Shown piece after piece: positions 18,955 to 27,472 of a stretch of DNA of 64,000 nt. Below the pieces are notes generated by a model that did no database searches, was not told the DNA's origin, and saw only the letters and a program-made list of their open reading frames with translations. The DNA lies in assembly GCF_017654485.1 (NCBI RefSeq), contig NZ_CP061093.1, positions 38,715-102,714 of the forward strand, given 5' to 3'. Source of the stretch: Roseomonas marmotae. Its GTDB lineage: Bacteria > Pseudomonadota > Alphaproteobacteria > Acetobacterales > Acetobacteraceae. Position 1 is the stretch's first letter. The number at the start of each line of letters is the position of its first letter. The position numbers and the translations under genes are program-made.

Positions 18955-19722
18955 ATGACGACGACCGCGGCACGCCCATCGGCGGCACGCGCCCTGGCGG
19001 TGGCCGGACTGCTGCTGACGCTCGCCGCCTGCGACAGCTGGGGGCATATCCAGCGCCCGCCACCGATCTCGGCTCCCGGCTCGCTGGACGGCATCCCCGC
19101 GGCGGGGGAGCCGGACAGCCCGCTGGCCGTCGCCACGCGTCCGCGGCTGGAAGGCACCGGACCCACCGCGCCGGGCTCGCTCTGGCGCCCGGGCAGCCGC
19201 ACCTTCTTCCGGGACCAGCGGGCCCGCGCGGCGGGCGACCTGCTGACCGTGGAGATCGAGATCGACGACAGCGCGCAATTTGACAACAAGACCGATCTCG
19301 ACCGCGATACCACGCAAAGCCTGAAGCTGCCGGCGCTCTTCGGCCTGCAGGGCTATCTCTCCCGCGCCTTCGGCGGCAGCACCGACCCGGCGCTGAGCGT
19401 CGGCGGCGGCAGCAGCACCAGTGGGGAGGGCAGGGTACGGCGCACCGAGAAGATCCGCCTGCAGGTGGCGGCGACGGTGGTGCGCGTGCTGGCCAGCGGC
19501 AATCTGGAGATTGCCGGCTCGCAGGAAATCCGAGTCAATGACGAGCTGCGGGAATTGCAGCTGCGCGGCCTCGTGCGGCCGGAGGATATCCGTCCGAACA
19601 ACCGCATCGCCTCCGAGAAGATCGCCGAGGCCCGCATCTCCTATGGCGGGCGCGGCACCTCCTCCGACATGCTGCGGCCGCGTTGGGGCCAGCAGGTGCT
19701 GGACCGCGTGCTGCCCTACTGA
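18955..19722 (+). CDS. flgH: Flagellar L-ring lipoprotein FlgH
   Basis: Outer-membrane L-ring subunit. 255 residues. A lipoprotein signal ends in the lipobox LAAC (Cys about 27). Then PGSLWRPGSRTFFRDQRARAAGDLLTVEIEIDDSAQFDNKTD is the FlgH core, and VLASGNLEIAGSQEIRVNDELRELQLRGLVRPEDIRPNNRIASEKIAEARISYGGRG matches the family C-terminus. The start at 18955 gives a proper basic n-region. It ends three bases into the convergent downstream gene, sharing stop-codon sequence. Confidence 0.95.
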   Translation: MTTTAARPSAARALAVAGLLLTLAACDSWGHIQRPPPISAPGSLDGIPAAGEPDSPLAVATRPRLEGTGPTAPGSLWRPGSRTFFRDQRARAAGDLLTVEIEIDDSAQFDNKTDLDRDTTQSLKLPALFGLQGYLSRAFGGSTDPALSVGGGSSTSGEGRVRRTEKIRLQVAATVVRVLASGNLEIAGSQEIRVNDELRELQLRGLVRPEDIRPNNRIASEKIAEARISYGGRGTSSDMLRPRWGQQVLDRVLPY

Positions 19723-20267: not shown

Positions 20268-20387
20268 CGGCTCGGTCTTGGCTTTTTTGGAGGCTAGCGC
20301 GGAACGATGATGGCGGCGAGAGCGCCTTTGCGCTTGCATACCGGCCGGCAAATCATTGCCATGCCTGCATCCCCGCCCAGGAGCCCG

Positions 20388-21521
20388 ATGATGACCGGCG
20401 ACCCGCCGCAGGACAGCTGGCCCAGTTCGCCCTGGGAGGGAGAGGAGGAGGCGCCGCGTCCTCCCTGGGCCAGTGGCCCCGCCCCGGCGGCGCCGCTGCC
20501 CGCCGAGGCGCTGTTGCGCCCGCTGGCCGAGGCGGAGGATGCGCTCTCCCGCCTTGATGCCCTGGCGGGGGCCGCGGCGCCAGCGGTGCAGGCCGGTCTC
20601 GCGGCCCGGATGGCGCTGGCGGAGGCGGCCGGCTGGCTGGCGGTCGAGGAGATCTGGGTGCATCCGCGCGACCTGGCGCTGCGCGAGGCGCGGCTGACCG
20701 GCTCCACCGCGGCCGCCCTGGCGGGGGAGAGGCTGGCCGCCGCCCTGCCCTCCACCTTGCGGGAGGCCGAGGCCGCGCCGGCCGAGCCTCCCGCCGATGC
20801 CGCGATCGAGCAGGGCCTGGCCCTGGCCCGCGTCCTGCGCCGGCTGGCGACCCTGCAGACCGTCGATCCACTCGATTCCGCCGAGGCCTTCTCCCATGCC
20901 ATCGGCCCGCTGGGGCCGGCGCTCTGGCCGGCCGCCTCCCACGTCCCGGGCGTGGCGGCGCCGGATTTCGCCCAATGGCGCGCGGGCTTCCTGAAGGCCG
21001 GGGAAGATGCGCCGGCCCTGCTGGCCGCCGCGCGCGGCGCCGCCGCCTGGGCGCGCGAGGCCGCCGAGGCCGATCCGGCCCGCCCCGGCGCCTTGCAGGC
21101 CCTGCTGGTGGCGGCAGTGCTGGTCAAGCGGCGCGGCCGGCTGCGGCATGTGCCCTTGCCCTTCTGGTGCGCCTTCACCGGGCGGATGCGGCGGCAGCGT
21201 CCGCGCCTGCAACAGCCCGGCTGGCCCCTGGCCTTCCTGGATGAGGTGGCGGAGGGCGCGCGGCGGGGTCTCTCGGAACTGGACCGGCTGAATGCCGCCG
21301 CCGCCCGCGCCGCCGCCCTGGCCGCGAAGGAGCGCAGTCACGGCCAGGCCGGCAAGGCCGCTGAGATCGCGCTGCGCCAGCCCGTGCTGACGGCGGCTGG
21401 GCTGGCGGCGCAGCTGGGTGCCACACCCCAGGGGGCGCTGCTGATCATCAAGCGGCTGATGGCCGCGGGCATCCTGCGCGAGGCCACGGGCCGCGCCAGC
21501 TTCCGCGCCTTCGTGGTCTGA
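20388..21521 (+). CDS. DUF1612/HTH protein of the RHE_PE00001 type
   Basis: 377 residues, started at the first of two ATGs behind a good AGGAG site. The opening core is PLAEAEDALSRLDALAG (about 47-63), then MALAEAAGWLAVEEIWVHPRDLALREARLTGS. A Pro/Ala helical middle follows, and the last ~60 residues read like a winged helix (LTAAGLAAQLGATPQGALLIIKRLMAAGILREATGRASFRAFVV). This order matches what I remember of the RHE_PE00001 family, with DUF1612 and an HTH_13 end, often found on plasmids of alphaproteobacteria. It may control neighbours through DNA binding. Role unknown. Confidence 0.6.
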   Translation: MMTGDPPQDSWPSSPWEGEEEAPRPPWASGPAPAAPLPAEALLRPLAEAEDALSRLDALAGAAAPAVQAGLAARMALAEAAGWLAVEEIWVHPRDLALREARLTGSTAAALAGERLAAALPSTLREAEAAPAEPPADAAIEQGLALARVLRRLATLQTVDPLDSAEAFSHAIGPLGPALWPAASHVPGVAAPDFAQWRAGFLKAGEDAPALLAAARGAAAWAREAAEADPARPGALQALLVAAVLVKRRGRLRHVPLPFWCAFTGRMRRQRPRLQQPGWPLAFLDEVAEGARRGLSELDRLNAAAARAAALAAKERSHGQAGKAAEIALRQPVLTAAGLAAQLGATPQGALLIIKRLMAAGILREATGRASFRAFVV

Positions 21522-21562
21522 GCCTCGGCCTTGCGGCCAGATGGCTGGCCGCGCTAGCCTCA

Positions 21563-21572
21563 TGCGAAATTC
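21563..21572 (+). promoter_or_regulatory. TGCGAAATTC motif before the glycosyltransferase gene
   Basis: Lies 26 bases before the chosen start at 21589 and 41 bases after the upstream stop. It is a diverged copy of the recurring motif, at the head of the putative glycan cassette. Confidence 0.35.
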
Positions 21573-21588
21573 TATGACGGAGCGGCGG

Positions 21589-23556
21589 ATGGCCGACCTG
21601 ACCCCGCGCCTGCGGCGGCTCACACGCTGGGCGGAGCTGGACCGGATGCTGCCGGCACTGGGCCGGCCTTCCGGCAAGGCTGCCCAGGCCCTGGCAGAAG
21701 CGCTGCTGCGGCTGGCGAAGCGGGAGGGCGGGGGCCTCGGCCTGAACCCGGCGGTGCTGGGGCGGCTTTCGTCACGGCTGGATGCACAGGGCCTGCGGCT
21801 GGAACATCCCAGCTGGCAGGCCATGACGGCCGTCCTGGCCGGCGCCGCGCCGGCCACCTTCCAGGCGGGGGAGGCCATGCCCGCCGCGCTGGCCGTGGCC
21901 GCGCTGCGGATCAGTCACGGCCATGCGGCGGCGATGCGCTGGCTGCTCACGACTGTCACCGCCCTGCCCGGTACCGCGGCGCTGGATGCCAGGCTGCACG
22001 AGACACTGTGGCGGCTGGACCTGTTGCGGGCTGATGCCGGCATGGCGGCCTGGGCGCCGGACCTGCCGCCAGCGCAGCAGCTCCGCGCGCTGCGGCTGCT
22101 GGGCCTCACCGCCCGCCGCCCCATGCCCTATAGCCAGGCGCTGGTCGAGCATCTGGCGCTGCCCTGGATGGCGCGCTGCACCGTGACAGGCGAGGCGGAA
22201 CCGGCCCTGGTTCTGGAGGGCCTGCTGACCGAGCACTGGCTGAAACGCGAGGAATCAGAGGCACATTACGCACGCTGGACCAGCGCCTGGACACCCGGCC
22301 TCTTCGCACTGGGCCGTGCGGCGCAGGCACCGGAACACCGGCCCGGCCCGGCGGGCGACGGTCCTCCACCCCTGGCTTTCATCGTCCATAACGGCGTGCT
22401 GCTGGCGCATACCGAGGTGCTGCTGCTGGCCCTTCGGCGGCTGCAGCAACGCGGCGATGCCGGCTTCCGCCCGCAGATCTGGGTGCTGGGCGAGATGGAG
22501 GAGCGCTTTCACGCGGCATTCTCGGCGGCGGGGGCGGAGCTGTACGCCCTGGGCGCCTGGTGTGCCGGCCAGGGACTGGCCGCCCGACTGCACCGGTTGA
22601 GGCGGGAGCTAGCGGCACGAGGCTGCGAGGCCGCCGTCTGGCTCTGCCACCCTCATCTCCTGGCCTATGCCGCCGGGCTCGGCATCGCGCCGCGCCTAGC
22701 CTGGTGGTCGTTGAAATACCACCCGCCCATCCCTGGCCCGGATCTGCGGCTCTGCCAGGCCGGCGGTGAGCCGATGGCGGCCGTCACCATCCGCGGCCAG
22801 TCCTGGCACATCCTGCCCCTGGGCTTCATGGCGGTGCCGCCAGGGCCGGAGGCCCGGGCCGAGGCGGCGCGCCTGCGGGCCGGACTGCCACCCGATGCCG
22901 TCCTGCTCTCCACCGTGATGCGGATCGACAAGATGGACTCGCCCGCCTTCTGGGAGACCGCCGCCGCGATCCTGAAACAGGCGCCCCAGGCCATCTGGCG
23001 CTATGCCGGCCAGCAGGATCTGCCTGGGCTGCGCGCCTGCCTGGAGCGCCATGGGGTGGCCGGGCGGGCGCAGTTCGTCGGCTGGGTCAACCCGGCGGTG
23101 GAGGCGGCGCTGGCCGATCTCTACCTGGATGGCTGGCCGGTCGGCTCGGGCGCCACGGCGGCCCAGGCCATGATGGCCGGCATTCCCTATGTCTTCCGCG
23201 TGGCGGAAGCGGCGATGGATGGTTCGACGGGCGTGATGGACACGCTCTGGCTGCTGCCGCGCCGGCGCGGCGCGCTGGGGCCGGAGGCGGAGGCCAGCTT
23301 CCTCGCCTGCTTCGCTGAATCGACGGGCTCGCTGCTGCGGCAGCCGCGGGATCAGGAGGAACAGGTGCGCTGGGCGCTGGACCTGATCGCTGATGCCGCC
23401 TTGCGCCGCCGCACCGGCGCCGCCTTCCAGCGTTTCGCCAGCCGCCATGTCTGCAACCCGGAGGGACTCGCGGAGGGGCTGCGGCGCGCGGCGGCGCAAC
23501 TGCTCCCTGGCCGGAGCTTTGCGAAAAATATTTGCGTGGAGGTTCCAGCCCTCTAG
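21589..23556 (+). CDS. HMW1C-like cytoplasmic glycosyltransferase (GT41-type, tentative)
   Basis: 655 residues. The ATG at 21589 has a GGAG site 6 bases upstream. The N-terminal half is helical, like the all-alpha part of HMW1C enzymes. The C-terminal half is a GT-B fold: AFIVHNGVLLAHTEVLLLALRRL (about 263), LLSTVMRIDKMDSPAFWETAAAILKQAPQAIWRYAGQQ (about 440) and ADLYLDGWPVGSGATAAQAMMAGIPYVFR (about 510). The last block, with its Asp-x-x-Pro-like turn and Gly/Ser-Gly-Ala-Thr, looks like the nucleotide-sugar site of HMW1C/O-GlcNAc-transferase-like enzymes. Such enzymes glycosylate proteins in the cytosol. Flagellin is a plausible target because of the flagellar context. Confidence 0.65.
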   Translation: MADLTPRLRRLTRWAELDRMLPALGRPSGKAAQALAEALLRLAKREGGGLGLNPAVLGRLSSRLDAQGLRLEHPSWQAMTAVLAGAAPATFQAGEAMPAALAVAALRISHGHAAAMRWLLTTVTALPGTAALDARLHETLWRLDLLRADAGMAAWAPDLPPAQQLRALRLLGLTARRPMPYSQALVEHLALPWMARCTVTGEAEPALVLEGLLTEHWLKREESEAHYARWTSAWTPGLFALGRAAQAPEHRPGPAGDGPPPLAFIVHNGVLLAHTEVLLLALRRLQQRGDAGFRPQIWVLGEMEERFHAAFSAAGAELYALGAWCAGQGLAARLHRLRRELAARGCEAAVWLCHPHLLAYAAGLGIAPRLAWWSLKYHPPIPGPDLRLCQAGGEPMAAVTIRGQSWHILPLGFMAVPPGPEARAEAARLRAGLPPDAVLLSTVMRIDKMDSPAFWETAAAILKQAPQAIWRYAGQQDLPGLRACLERHGVAGRAQFVGWVNPAVEAALADLYLDGWPVGSGATAAQAMMAGIPYVFRVAEAAMDGSTGVMDTLWLLPRRRGALGPEAEASFLACFAESTGSLLRQPRDQEEQVRWALDLIADAALRRRTGAAFQRFASRHVCNPEGLAEGLRRAAAQLLPGRSFAKNICVEVPAL

Positions 23557-23596
23557 TATCGCCGCCGGTCGAGCCGTCCTGCCCCGAGAACGGTAG

Positions 23597-23606
23597 TGCG
23601 AAAAAG
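23597..23606 (+). promoter_or_regulatory. TGCGAAAAAG motif before the GNAT/FemAB-like gene
   Basis: Seven bases before the ATG at 23613. A further copy (TGCGAAAAAT at 23520) lies within the end of the preceding gene. Being this close to the start codon would make it unusual as an activator site. Confidence 0.35.
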
Positions 23607-23612
23607 AGAGAC

Positions 23613-24632
23613 ATGCCGGAAGCCCTTCATCTCCGCCCTGCCCCGCAGCTCCCCCTGCCCATGCGGGCGCCCTCGCCAGCGGCCACGCGGCCCGAGGGGT
23701 TTGAGATGCTGGTCGATGCCTTCGTGGCCGACGATGCACCAGATCTCTTCAACCGTGCCGCTTTCCATCGCCTGCACCGGCATCGCCCGGGCATCGGCGC
23801 CGGCGCCTTCCTGCAATGGCGGCAGGGCAGCTCGGGCCGCATCTGCGCCACCTTCCAGGCGTTGGAGACCGAGCCCGGATATTTCGCCAGCCCCGGACGC
23901 GGCTCCTATGGCGGATTCGATCTCGCCGGGGATCTGGGCTGCGCCGAGATCGCCGACTTCGTCACCGCGGCGGAGGCGCATCTGCAGGAGCTGGGGGCGC
24001 GGCGGCTCGGCCTGGTGCTGCCGCCTTTCTGCTACGCCCCCGGCCGCGCGGCGCTGGTGCTAAGCACCCTGCTGGGCGCCGGCTATGTGGTGGAGCGGCA
24101 CGAGCTCAACCAGTCCATCGACCTGCAGCACGCAAGGCTGTCCTCCAGGCGCAACTACCTGATCAGCCGGGCGCGGCGCGAGGGGCTGAGCACCACGCTG
24201 CTGGCGCCGCGCGACTACCAGGAAGCCCATGCGGTGCTGGTGGAGAGCCGGGAGAAGAAGGGCCTCACGCTCAGCATGAGCTGGCCCGACGTGGCGGAGA
24301 TGGCCGAGGCTTTTCCCGATGCCCTGCGCGTCTTCGGCGCCTATCACGGCGGCAGCATGGTCGCGGCCGCCATCTGCATCGCGGTCAATCCCCGCCAGCT
24401 CTACGTCTATACCTGGGGCGAGCGGCGCGGCAGCGAGCCGCTGAGCCCGGTGACGCTGATCGCCGACACGCTCTACCGCCATGCCCGCGCCGGTGGCTTC
24501 CAGCGGCTCGACCTCGGCGCCTCATCCATCGGCGGCGTCGTCAATCACGGCGTGTACGCCTTCAAGAAAAGCCTCGGCGCCACGCCGTCGGTGAAGCTGT
24601 TCCTCGGCAAGACGCTGAGCTGGAGATCCTGA
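23613..24632 (+). CDS. FemAB/GNAT-fold acyl- or aminoacyltransferase-like protein
   Basis: 339 residues. The C-terminal two thirds read as a GNAT-type transferase: HAVLVESREKKGLTLSMSWPDVAEM, VFGAYHGGSMVAAAICIAVNPRQLYVYTWG, SPVTLIADTLYRHARAGGFQRLDLGASS. This is the layout of the double-GNAT 'FemAB-like' proteins found in glycan and exopolysaccharide clusters, where they add acyl or amino-acid groups to sugars. No signal peptide. Its stop overlaps the next ATG as TGATG. Within this cassette it may acylate an amino sugar that the glycosyltransferase transfers. Family call is reasonable, substrate unknown. Confidence 0.6.
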   Translation: MPEALHLRPAPQLPLPMRAPSPAATRPEGFEMLVDAFVADDAPDLFNRAAFHRLHRHRPGIGAGAFLQWRQGSSGRICATFQALETEPGYFASPGRGSYGGFDLAGDLGCAEIADFVTAAEAHLQELGARRLGLVLPPFCYAPGRAALVLSTLLGAGYVVERHELNQSIDLQHARLSSRRNYLISRARREGLSTTLLAPRDYQEAHAVLVESREKKGLTLSMSWPDVAEMAEAFPDALRVFGAYHGGSMVAAAICIAVNPRQLYVYTWGERRGSEPLSPVTLIADTLYRHARAGGFQRLDLGASSIGGVVNHGVYAFKKSLGATPSVKLFLGKTLSWRS

Positions 24633-25345
24633 TGTCCCTCGTCCTGAACCGCGACTACTCCAACACCTATGATCCGGAGGCGGATTTCGACCGCTGGTAC
24701 ACCATCTTCGCGGCACGGCGGATCGCGCCGCGCCTGGGGCGGGGCACGCGCATCCTGGAAGCCGGATCGGCCACCGGGCTGCTGACCGCCGAACTCTGCG
24801 GCGAGGGGCGGCAGATCACCTGCATCGAGCGTTCCGCCAGCTATGCCGCGCTGGCCCGCGCGCGAGGCCTGCCGGGTGTCACGGTGGTGGAGGCGCAGCT
24901 GGAGGAATTCGCGGCCGAGGGCGGCTTCGACCATGTGCTGGCCACCAACCTGCTGCATGAATTTCCAGATCCCGCCGCCATCCTGGCGCGGTTGGCGGCG
25001 CAGCTGGCACCGGGCGGGCTGATGCATGTCACCCTGCCCAACCCGCGTTCCCTGCACCGGCTGGTGGCCTTGCATGCGGGGCTGCTGGAGGATCTCTGCG
25101 CCATGCACCTGCCACCGCCCAACGAGCAGCATTTCCGCCTGCATGAGGCGGCCGAGGTGGAGGCCATGGGCCGTGCCTGCGGGCTGGAACTGCTCTCGCG
25201 CGAGGGCATTCTGGTCAAGCCGCTGCCGAATGCGGAGATGGCCCGGCTTCCGCCGACGGTGCTGGAGGGTTTCGACGCCCTGGCCGCCGGATTGCTGCCG
25301 GAGCATGGCGCGGTGACCTATTTCCTGTTCCGCCGCCATGGCTGA
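24632..25345 (+). CDS. Class I SAM-dependent methyltransferase
   Basis: 237 residues. SAM motif I is RILEAGSATGLLTAELCGEG (about 41-60), motif II-like ITCIERSASYAALARA, and FDHVLATNLLHEFPDPAAILARLAAQLAPGGLMHVTLPNP, the post-I and motif III regions of class I enzymes. The opening, RDYSNTYDPEADFDRWYTIFAARRI, resembles sugar- or lipid-linked methyltransferases in surface-glycan clusters. Coupled to the genes on both sides by overlaps. Methylation of a glycan is the likely role. Confidence 0.8.
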   Translation: MSLVLNRDYSNTYDPEADFDRWYTIFAARRIAPRLGRGTRILEAGSATGLLTAELCGEGRQITCIERSASYAALARARGLPGVTVVEAQLEEFAAEGGFDHVLATNLLHEFPDPAAILARLAAQLAPGGLMHVTLPNPRSLHRLVALHAGLLEDLCAMHLPPPNEQHFRLHEAAEVEAMGRACGLELLSREGILVKPLPNAEMARLPPTVLEGFDALAAGLLPEHGAVTYFLFRRHG

Positions 25346-26726
25346 ACCGCTGCATGTGGTGGGCGGCTCCGTCGCGGCCCTGGTGGCAGCGCTGACGGCG
25401 GCGCGGCACCGGCCAGTGGAGCTGTATCTGGATCCGGCCCGCGCGGGCGGCGGCTTCGCGGGCCTGCGCCTGGGGGGCTCCTGGCTGCCCCTGGGCATGC
25501 GGCTGCTGGAGCTGGATTACGAGGACCCGCTGGAGGCGCGGCGGCCACTGGCGGATTACGACCCGGCGCGGGACGACCACCGTCCCTTCATCGACGTGCT
25601 GCGCCGCCATTTGGAGGAATGGCTGGGGCCGGAGCTGATAGCCGCTCCGGCACCGGAAATGCTGTGGGAGGGGCGCCGCACGACCTGCGCCCTGACCAGT
25701 GCCGATATCGCCACCTTGCCACCGCTGATGGCCCCCTCCCTGCGCGCCCGCATCGCCGCCGAGGCCGGGGCCCTGTTGCGGGACCCCGCACCGCCGGCCT
25801 GGCGCTTCCTGCCCGGCCGTGCCGCGCGACTGGAGGCGGTGGGGCTGGAGGCGGCCTCCCGCGACAACCATGGCGCCACCCTGCACAGCATGCTGCTGGC
25901 GCCACTGGCGGCGCGGGTGGACCCGACCGGCTGGGCCGCCTGCCCGGCCACCGAGCGCCGCAAGCTCTGGGCAGCGCTGTTCCATCCGCGCACGGTGCTG
26001 GAGGCCTTCCGCGACGGCCGCACCAGTTTCCGTCCGCGTCGCCCCTTCGCCACGCTGCGGCGGGGCGGCATGGCCGGCGCGGTGCGGCGGATGCTGGCGG
26101 CGCTGAGAGCATCGCCGGCGGTGCGGCTGCACCGGGTCGGGCGCCTGACCGGACTGGCGCGGCGTGGTGAGGAACTCCTGCTGGATTTCGACGGCCGGCG
26201 CACCCGTCTGCCCACGCGCAGTGCCGCTTTCGGCCTGGGAGCGGAGGAGGCCTTCGCCGCCGCGGGGCTGGCCTATGCGCCCAACCGGCTGCGCGCCGGC
26301 TTTGCCTGGATGGCGGTGCGGGAGGCGGAGCTGCTGCACATCCCTTCCGCTTTGCTGCTCTGCGGCGCGGGCGCCCCTGCCTTCCGCATCTCCGATGGCG
26401 GGATGGTGGCGCCGGGGGAGCGGCGCCTGACCATCGAGTTTGGCGATATGGCGGCCGCGCCGGGGGCCGATGCGGCCCGCGCCGCGCTGGAGGCGGCGGG
26501 GCTGCTGCGACCGGGCGCCGCGCCACGGCTGCTGCATGCCCTGGCCGGCCCCGCGCAGGTCGCGCCCAGCGAGGCCAACCGTCAGGCGCATGAGACGGCC
26601 GCGACAGCCTTCCGCACGGCTCTGGGCGGGCGGCCACGCATTCTCGGCGGCGCCCGGCGCTTCGGCTTCGAGAGCTTCAACGACCAGATGGTGGACGGGC
26701 TGCATTGCGGGCAATGCCAGGGGTGA
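25338..26726 (+). CDS. FAD/NAD(P)-binding oxidoreductase of the glycan cassette
   Basis: 462 residues, overlapping the methyltransferase gene by eight bases. The N-terminus has a Rossmann start, PLHVVGGSVAALVAALTAARHRPVELYLDPARAGGGFAGLRL (about 4-45), with a Gly-Gly-Ser-x-Ala variant of the GxGxxG fingerprint. A later QMVDGLHCGQCQG ends the chain with two close Cys. The overall look is that of protoporphyrinogen-oxidase or UDP-galactopyranose-mutase-like proteins. There is no clear membrane anchor. The reaction is unknown; in this cassette it could oxidise or isomerise an activated sugar. Confidence 0.55.
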   Translation: MAEPLHVVGGSVAALVAALTAARHRPVELYLDPARAGGGFAGLRLGGSWLPLGMRLLELDYEDPLEARRPLADYDPARDDHRPFIDVLRRHLEEWLGPELIAAPAPEMLWEGRRTTCALTSADIATLPPLMAPSLRARIAAEAGALLRDPAPPAWRFLPGRAARLEAVGLEAASRDNHGATLHSMLLAPLAARVDPTGWAACPATERRKLWAALFHPRTVLEAFRDGRTSFRPRRPFATLRRGGMAGAVRRMLAALRASPAVRLHRVGRLTGLARRGEELLLDFDGRRTRLPTRSAAFGLGAEEAFAAAGLAYAPNRLRAGFAWMAVREAELLHIPSALLLCGAGAPAFRISDGGMVAPGERRLTIEFGDMAAAPGADAARAALEAAGLLRPGAAPRLLHALAGPAQVAPSEANRQAHETAATAFRTALGGRPRILGGARRFGFESFNDQMVDGLHCGQCQG

Positions 26727-26935: not shown

Positions 26936-27468
26936 ATGAGCGCCATCAACCCCCTGATCCCCCCCCGGGCGCAGCACCCGGGACATCCGGCGACCGCCAT
27001 TCCCATCATCCTCACCATCAACGGCCGGCGGCAGGAGTTGCATGTGCAGCCCTGGACCTCGCTGCTGGACCTGCTGCGCGAGGAGCTGGCGCTGACCGGT
27101 ACCAAGAAGGGCTGCGACCACGGGCAATGCGGCGCCTGCACCGTGCTGCTGGACGGGCAGCGGGTGAATTCCTGCCTCGCGCTGGCCGTCACCAAGGATG
27201 GCGCCGAGATCACGACCATCGAGGGACTGGCCGAGGCCGATGGCACCCTGCATCCGCTGCAGGAGGCCTTCATCGAGCATGACGCCTTCCAGTGCGGCTA
27301 TTGCACGCCCGGGCAGATCTGCTCGGCGGCGGGGCTGCTGCGGGAGGGGCATGCGCAGAGCCTGGAGGAGATCCGCGAGCAGATGAGCGGCAATATCTGC
27401 CGCTGCGGCGCCTATCCGAATATCGTCGCCGCCATCGACGCGGTGCGGCGGAACGGGGGGGCGGAATC

Positions 27469-27472
<4 letters not shown>
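26936..27472 (+). CDS. paoA: Aldehyde/xanthine dehydrogenase-type 2Fe-2S subunit (PaoA-like)
   Basis: 178 residues, the electron-transfer subunit of a three-part molybdenum hydroxylase. A Pro-rich N-terminal extension is followed by the plant-type [2Fe-2S] site TKKGCDHGQCGACTVLLDGQRVNSC (about 57-81), then the second [2Fe-2S] domain with FQCGYCTPGQICSAAGLL and SGNICRCGAYPNI. E. coli PaoA carries a Tat signal; here no typical twin-Arg signal is visible, so the complex may be cytoplasmic or exported by other means. Four-base overlap with the FAD subunit. Confidence 0.85.

Follow-up and report, generated by a model that had tools for sequence, protein, structure and literature searches.

A Candidate Flagellar Glycosylation Island beside flgH in Roseomonas marmotae

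Results

A Four-Gene Cassette Bordering a Flagellar Cluster

A 64,000-nucleotide stretch of the Roseomonas marmotae genome (assembly GCF_017654485.1, contig NZ_CP061093.1, positions 38,715 to 102,714; called the window in what follows) carries four co-oriented forward-strand genes, g1 to g4, at positions 21589-26726, the right-hand edge of a flagellar gene cluster. We consider it quite likely that these genes constitute a flagellar glycosylation island. The flagellum is in all likelihood their target, flagellin itself is probably the protein concerned, and direct transfer of a sugar onto protein by g1 is possible but somewhat doubtful. Flagellar glycosylation is well supported, if indirectly, by a motif that the cassette shares with flagellar genes, by relatives of g1 that lie near flagellar genes, and by a relative of g4 that lies near flagellins. 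The original prediction had proposed that flagellin is glycosylated by a cassette built around an HMW1C-like enzyme; genomic context and the motif uphold a flagellar glycan gene set, and the HMW1C enzyme has had to be given up.

The gene structure had been predicted correctly: all four frames lie on the forward strand and the last three genes overlap, g2 and g3 by 1 nt and g3 and g4 by 8 nt. The further proposal of a single cassette at the cluster edge is supported as well, and the cassette carries the contig's own motif. Because of the overlaps, g2, g3, and g4 are probably translated together; a gap of 56 bp separates g1 from g2. The g1 open reading frame (ORF) opens at 21541 (671 amino acids [aa]), but since all eight homologs found begin at the Met encoded at 21589, we take the gene to start there (Table 1). 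The starts of g2 and g3 also fall within longer mechanically called ORFs. The genome comprises 4.83 Mb in 10 contigs, and the window lies on the one called C3 (102,714 bp). Several names used below were assigned by eye: RmlA, RmlB, FdtA, FlaF of C3, flgA, flgF, flgG, flgH, MinD, xanthine dehydrogenase, FliI of two congeners (G009 and G014), and the aminotransferase of genome G730.

Table 1. Features of the Cassette and Its Surroundings (Window Coordinates)
Feature	Position	Strand	Length (aa)	Assignment or remark	Basis
flgH-like gene	18955..19722	+		Closes the flagellar run flgF-flgG-flgA-flgH	Synteny; names by eye
Left neighbor, HTH_13/DUF1612 (RHE_PE00001-like) gene	20307..21521	+		Left edge of the apparent insertion	
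TGCGAAA	21563..21569	+		Begins 26 bp before the g1 start	
g1	21589..23556	+	655	GT-B-type glycosyltransferase	Homologs, start site, profile comparisons
TGCGAAA, form TTGCGAAAAATA	23520..23526	+		Within the 3' end of g1; matches the copy before flagellin	
TGCGAAA	23597..23603	+		Begins 16 bp before the g2 start	
g2	23613..24632	+	339	FemAB/GNAT-like acyl- or aminoacyltransferase	PF13480, FemX profile
g3	24632..25345	+	237	S-adenosylmethionine-dependent methyltransferase	PF13489
g4	25338..26726	+	462	Flavoprotein-like enzyme, dinucleotide-binding-type N-terminus	Weak family-level matches
Right neighbor, xanthine-dehydrogenase-type [2Fe-2S] subunit	26936..27472	+		Right edge of the apparent insertion	By eye

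A Motif Shared with Flagellar Genes

The flagellar-type motifs predicted ahead of two cassette genes are there: TGCGAAA occurs once before g1 and twice before g2. With a consensus of approximately TATGCGAAAAA, this motif marks the flagellar contig (window positions 1-27000 and loci L003 and L004). Contig C3 holds 29 copies, compared with a mean of 6.45 and a range of 4-13 in 20 first-order Markov simulations, and their spread is uneven, with 25 in the 60.2 kb to the left of the cassette, three in the 5.4-kb cassette, and one over the 37 kb on the other side. At the Markov rate 0.34 copies would be expected in the cassette, and a calculation by hand gives a Poisson P of approximately 0.005 for at least three. 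The longer form ATGCGAAAAA has 10 exact sites in the 4.83-Mb genome, eight of them on C3, and a reversed control has no match; the other two sites are inside two near-identical genes, replication-like by eye, on C6 and C7. None of the 10 sites is in the cassette, whose three copies vary from this long form.

A scan of g1 loci in congeners covered L029, L030, L031, L032, and L041, leaving out L033 and L034. TGCGAAA precedes g1 in L031, a DegT aminotransferase gene in L032, and an HMGL-like gene near g1 in L030 and L041; in L029 it is found only at flagellar genes, so that four of the five loci have the motif near genes of the g1 region. Among metagenomic homologs, the protein ends that differ between g1 relatives might each be encoded by DNA with TGCGAAA, read in different frames. 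No -35 partner stands out around it. On sequence grounds TGCGAAA is possibly a hitherto undescribed flagellar control element of this genus, and we put it forward as a candidate. A sigma-54-type pattern, TGGC-N7-TTGC, with one copy before g2, was discarded because it occurs at chance level, with five copies found in the window versus 3.5 expected; the corresponding figures are 2 versus 1.1 in L003 and 3 versus 1.3 in L004.

Relatives of g1 Lie near Flagellar Genes

The profile search of other genomes that had been proposed as a check found relatives of g1 at seven places besides the window (35-39% identity to g1 by BLASTP), and all five whose surroundings can be read are in or near flagellar genes. 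On contig C122 of G005 the g1 relative lies between a DUF1217 gene and a Pfam-confirmed FliI gene, 4.5 kb from flagellin; in G009 and G014 it is near FliI-like genes very similar to that of G005; and on the named plasmid pL11-D of Pseudoroseomonas cervicalis it is beside FliI, across the origin of the record. The weakest of the five, on contig C169 of G005, is about 9 kb from a flgH fragment at the locus edge. The contigs that carry the relatives in G010 and G011 measure 4.1 and 6.8 kb, and so short a stretch does not allow the context to be judged.

A methyltransferase gene adjoins g1 at all seven places (in the window it lies two genes away). Four of these seven places also supplied the sequences for the profile that detected it; a g3 profile built from the window and a phage contig described below also matches the methyltransferase at 7/7 places, with E values of 5.2e-5 or better. 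Other sugar-related partners vary: a DegT aminotransferase, a hexapeptide transferase, WbqC, and PhyH are near g1 on C169 of G005, and a hexapeptide transferase in G014.

The g1 family was detected in six of 17 genomes of the genus and flagellin in 15, all six included. In a sample of the wider family g1 scored only in this genus (5/397 genomes, 1/102 genera); these large profile searches scored only three to four candidates per genome (three for the g1 family), and misses are possible. A first search of 78 relatives gave matches in nine, those of G022, G043, and G046 being weak; these three and additional places in G010 and G011 (E 1e-4 to 1e-6) were read as GT41 glycosyltransferases of the tetratricopeptide repeat (TPR) type and are not counted here. 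A plasmid search with g1 returned one record, a flagellar plasmid, with 78% of g1 covered. Viral scans with the g1 and g2 profiles and a scan of a contig collection with g1 gave no confirmed match. Among metagenome and isolate homologs, g1, g2, and g4 occur on contigs sized 18238 and 43227, g1 and g4 on one of 473772, g1 and g2 on one of 966372, and g2 and g4 without detected g1 on contigs sized 5195 and 4925; here we infer that contigs of equal size are the same contig. Flagellin_N has five matches each in G005, G009, G010, G011, and G014 and zero to three in the other 12 genomes of the genus sample, G000 included; these five may carry two flagellar systems.

g1 Resembles GT41 More Than HMW1C

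The g1 protein of the window has no Pfam, NCBIfam, or PDB family match of its own, and profile searches of the PDB gave nothing meaningful. Seven of 14 aligned family members match Glyco_trans_1_4 weakly (best E 1.1e-4). In profile comparisons, residues ~428-638 of g1 align over 183 columns with bacterial GT41/OGT proteins of the SPINDLY type (HHalign 97.1%). GT4 also scores 94.3%, so GT41 is not the only match, and the sets compared were small (3-6 rows each), with only about 200 columns aligning, weakly. Control comparisons with the unrelated g4 profile and with FlmG-like proteins gave 0.3% and 0.5%. For the first ~430 residues, which are partly conserved within the family, comparison with the four glycosyltransferase sets gave no match. 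No TPR domain was matched in g1, and PF13844 (GT41) was matched neither in g1 nor in its relatives. The Lys of the segment DKMDSP is invariant across the 14 rows of the g1 alignment and corresponds to an invariant Lys of the six-row GT41 set, which we take to be the catalytic lysine of OGT. At a position of the nucleotide-binding loop where five of six GT41 proteins have Asp, an Asp that presumably has a functional role, and the TPR-GT41 of G730 has Glu, the g1 family has an invariant Gln and so departs from GT41.

Enzymes of the HMW1C/NGT group are of the GT-B type, and the original prediction had placed g1 among them. We reject that membership on the basis of Pfam scans and of comparison with four HMW1C-type proteins. 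Full Pfam scans at E<=0.1 found neither HMW1C_N nor HMw1_D2 in g1 or in 13 relatives (eight of them scanned at E<=10), and HMw1_D2 had no match in the source genome in a search validated by positives in four of 349 genomes. The g1 profile scored 17.2% against the HMW1C-type proteins, or 23.5% for its glycosyltransferase part, far below its scores with GT41 and GT4, whereas HMW1C and GT41 compared with each other reach 98.8% over 303 columns. Given these comparisons and the unmatched N-terminal part, the sequence marks g1 as a GT-B-type enzyme that forms a separate family, closest to GT41 and outside HMW1C. Since only residues ~428-638 align confidently, direct transfer to protein is not something that can be read from the family.

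A FlmG-Like Glycosyltransferase beside Flagellin

Directly upstream of flagellin in the source genome is a gene for a FlmG-like TPR-glycosyltransferase (L004:1015-3018), whose product has a TPR match and a glycosyltransferase domain without a Pfam match; it is 47-50% identical to the FlmG-like proteins of G005 and pL11-D, and such a gene is also found directly upstream of flagellin in G005 and P. cervicalis. The flagellin is 561 aa long, and its residues 151-451 are 20% Ser and Thr, a region that offers sites for glycosylation and proves nothing more.

g2, g3, and g4 Recur as a Module

Family assignments are firmer for g2 and g3 than for g4. The g2 protein matches PF13480 above the cut-off (E 1.2e-7), and a profile of 27 homologs matches FemX in the PDB (E 8.7e-5); g3 matches PF13489 (Methyltransf_23; E 7e-16). 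The g4 protein has no Pfam match in the window, and its family is without curated annotation. Of 24 members of the family, 19 match PF13450 (NAD_binding_8) weakly, at E<=0.1, but the protein from the window does not, and in the PDB the first ~60 residues of the g4 profile match gamma-carotene desaturase (2.2e-5) and renalase (1.3e-4); the flavoprotein matches reach only the first ~30-100 residues.

A g4 relative (31% identity) in G730, from another alphaproteobacterial family, lies 3-6 kb from three flagellin genes (two of which seeded the flagellin profile and one of which was checked with Pfam). It is next to methyltransferase and FemAB genes at a locus that also has a formyltransferase gene, an aminotransferase gene, and an RmlA-like gene, with the TPR-GT41 gene 6 kb off. 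Another relative, in G707 (L048:1-12852), is beside genes that by eye are RmlA/RmlB-, DegT-, PhyH-, and metallo-beta-lactamase-like. A plasmid search with g4 found no match. The viral scan with g4 found one phage contig, IMGVR_UViG_3300032770_000017 (L085:3232-11245), which has a weak major-tail-protein match (E 4.9e-6). It carries FemAB, methyltransferase, and g4 genes in the order of the window, with one small ORF between them and identities of 33, 42, and 34%. Next to them are a DegT aminotransferase and a 1057-aa multi-domain glycosyltransferase, the first glycosyltransferase part of which matches the g1 profile (3.9e-7). A second methyltransferase lies just beyond the g4-like protein, and the module is near the tail-protein-like gene; the phage glycan module may glycosylate the virion.

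The Insertion Site and the Flagellar Contig

Upstream of the cassette are flgF-, flgG-, flgA-, and flgH-like genes, a short reverse gene, and the HTH_13/DUF1612 gene, which in the four congeners read is likewise close to flgH; a xanthine-dehydrogenase-type operon lies downstream. In two congeners, L073 (G001) and L075 (G007), the dehydrogenase gene comes straight after the DUF1612 gene, and the cassette is missing. Because both neighbors abut in these genomes, the cassette at the flgH side looks like an insertion. A match to the right flank was absent from the stretch read in L074 and L076, which are not clean empty sites. In G003 a different insert, with a gene that by eye is substrate-binding-protein-like, separates flgH from the next reverse gene (L074:12671-16521); the flgH side may therefore be a hot spot for insertion.

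Contig C3 contains genes for RepA (PF10134), flagellin, FlbT, a DUF1217 protein, FliI, and FliK. Given RepA and the flagellar genes, C3 is probably a flagellar plasmid, and its content resembles that of pL11-D. The RepA gene and, by eye, MinD-like and partition-like genes are at L003:175-1329, L003:2004-2864, and L004:6931-8691; an HSP90 gene is at L004:8753-10588.

Discussion

The families of the four proteins suggest how such an island could work, their action on a sugar being inferred from family membership. A nucleotide-activated sugar, probably an amino-dideoxy sugar, would be tailored by g2, g3, and g4: g2 may N-acylate or aminoacylate it, g3 would be expected from its family to methylate it, and g4 may carry out a flavin-dependent redox step or an isomerization. 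An oxidized, acylated, and methylated sugar, as originally predicted, is thus plausible. The g1 enzyme would then transfer the tailored sugar in the cytoplasm, before export, the acceptor being either flagellin directly or a first sugar that the FlmG-like TPR-glycosyltransferase has added.

The FlmG of Caulobacter has a TPR domain that binds flagellin and is proven to O-glycosylate that protein, according to the part of the report available to us (PMC7591256). Since FlmG glycosylates flagellin, g1 could act on flagellin as a further transferase or could extend the sugar that FlmG adds, and we lean slightly toward the extender. The corresponding two-layer arrangement, compatible with the island that we propose, would have the FlmG-like enzyme add the first sugar and g1 cap it with the sugar tailored by g2 to g4; we give it close to an even chance. 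It is favored by the FlmG-like gene directly upstream of flagellin in three genomes, by the lack in g1 of a TPR or other known protein-binding domain, and by the similarity of g1 to GT4, nearly equal to that to GT41. The flagellin glycan of Pseudomonas syringae, in which a modified amino sugar caps rhamnose in the available part of the published description, provides a parallel (PMC3958885). Against a capping role, the large and partly conserved N-terminal part of g1 could bind a protein acceptor, and the best match of g1 is GT41. Many GT41 enzymes act on proteins.

Two other readings would dispense with a flagellar island of this kind. The genes might tailor a surface polysaccharide (lipopolysaccharide, capsule, or exopolysaccharide) and merely adjoin the flagellar cluster. 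The similarity of g1 to GT4 is in keeping with this, as is the presence of g2, g3, and g4 next to DegT aminotransferase and multi-domain glycosyltransferase genes on the phage contig; the g4 of G707, near which no flagellin was found, indicates that the products can decorate other things. Because the g1 family has a flagellar location at all five readable places besides the window, the cassette shares the TGCGAAA motif, and g4 is near flagellins in G730, we regard polysaccharide tailoring as improbable. More improbable still is an HMW1C-type N-glycosyltransferase cassette acting on flagellin or an adhesin. HMW1C acts in the cytoplasm, as the accessible text of one source states (PMC3958885), and g1 shares with it a GT-B-type nucleotide-binding half and a weak profile match. 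The missing Pfam domains and the HHalign values of 17-24%, set against 97% for GT41 and the 98.8% that HMW1C and GT41 reach with each other, speak against it, and no adhesin or partner-secretion gene was noticed among the neighbors looked at.

The flagellar glycosylation island remains the reading that we prefer, and several observations weigh against it. No sugar-nucleotide synthesis gene was recognized in the cassette, which must therefore draw its donors from another source (contig C1 of the source genome encodes three strong DegT aminotransferases). The N-terminal ~430 residues of g1 are unlike any glycosyltransferase set tried. In the genus, g1 went undetected in nine of the 15 genomes that have flagellin, and g4 was found in only 1/397 genomes of the family and 3/385 of the class, with at most four candidates scored per genome. 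In G707, the 57 kb that were read gave no match to the flagellin and TPR-glycosyltransferase profiles. Lastly, because the phage contig carries it, the g2-g3-g4 module is not specific to the flagellum.

Islands of the same kind are known. The flagellin glycosylation islands of Enterobacteriaceae, as described in the part of the account available, are variable gene sets with signs of horizontal transfer, absent from most strains, and they encode glycosyltransferases (among them 11 GT41 enzymes with a SPINDLY domain), AdoMet methyltransferases, and acetyl-, amino-, and formyltransferases (De Maayer and Cowan 2016, PMC4875605). The cassette is like them, to the extent that this text describes them, in joining a glycosyltransferase to sugar-modifying genes in a flagellar cluster and in its variable presence among relatives. 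It differs in site (the flgH side, in an alphaproteobacterial cluster that looks plasmid-like, as opposed to fliDC/AZ loci) and in its glycosyltransferase, g1 being without a family where those are of GT2, GT25, or GT41. FemAB and flavoprotein partners were not met in the available text, in which "oxidoreductase" was searched for in the main text, without a single occurrence, and FemAB was not (PMC4875605). The resemblance to FlmG of Caulobacter crescentus lies in a soluble GT-B enzyme that acts on flagellin in an alphaproteobacterium, so far as the consulted portion of that report goes (PMC7591256); unlike FlmG, g1 has no TPR, and it is dissimilar to the FlmG-like proteins of this genus, Caulobacter FlmG itself being outside the comparison. 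The sugar that we propose would resemble the modified viosamine of P. syringae flagellin, an amino-dideoxy sugar, acylated and O-methylated, that caps the glycan in the excerpts available (PMC3958885). Compared with HMW1C/NGT, g1 is without the diagnostic domains and has only a weak profile match. The viosamine enzymes of P. syringae are of the vioA/B/T/M types, and we know of no FemAB or g4-like flavoprotein in that pathway.

The original prediction knew of no described flagellin pathway with this gene set. Our searches of paper listings on flagellin glycosylation likewise yielded none with the exact set of four, but flagellin glycosylation islands with GT41, methyltransferase, and acetyltransferase genes are already published. 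Listing searches on Roseomonas flagellar plasmids yielded nothing that looked relevant. What is apparently new is the g1 family, the g2-g3-g4 module, and the TGCGAAA motif, neither the g1 family nor the motif having been searched for in the literature by name or sequence. One could go further and suppose all of these to be true together: a new family of cytoplasmic glycosyltransferases for flagellar proteins with a partner methyltransferase, a mobile sugar-building module, and a flagellar switch at TGCGAAA. The FemAB-methyltransferase-flavoprotein module would then be common to bacterial flagella and a phage and would build a previously unseen sugar, for example one that is aminoacylated, methylated, and flavin-oxidized. 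This combined proposal we regard as rather unlikely.

The cassette is a readable test case for the swapping of glycan genes in a plasmid-like flagellar cluster. Flagellar glycosylation would, on this evidence, involve a glycosyltransferase family not yet described and an unassigned flavoprotein-like enzyme, and a module may be moving between flagellar islands and a phage. New cytoplasmic transferases would also serve protein engineering. Flagellin glycans are of consequence for motility and for recognition by a host.

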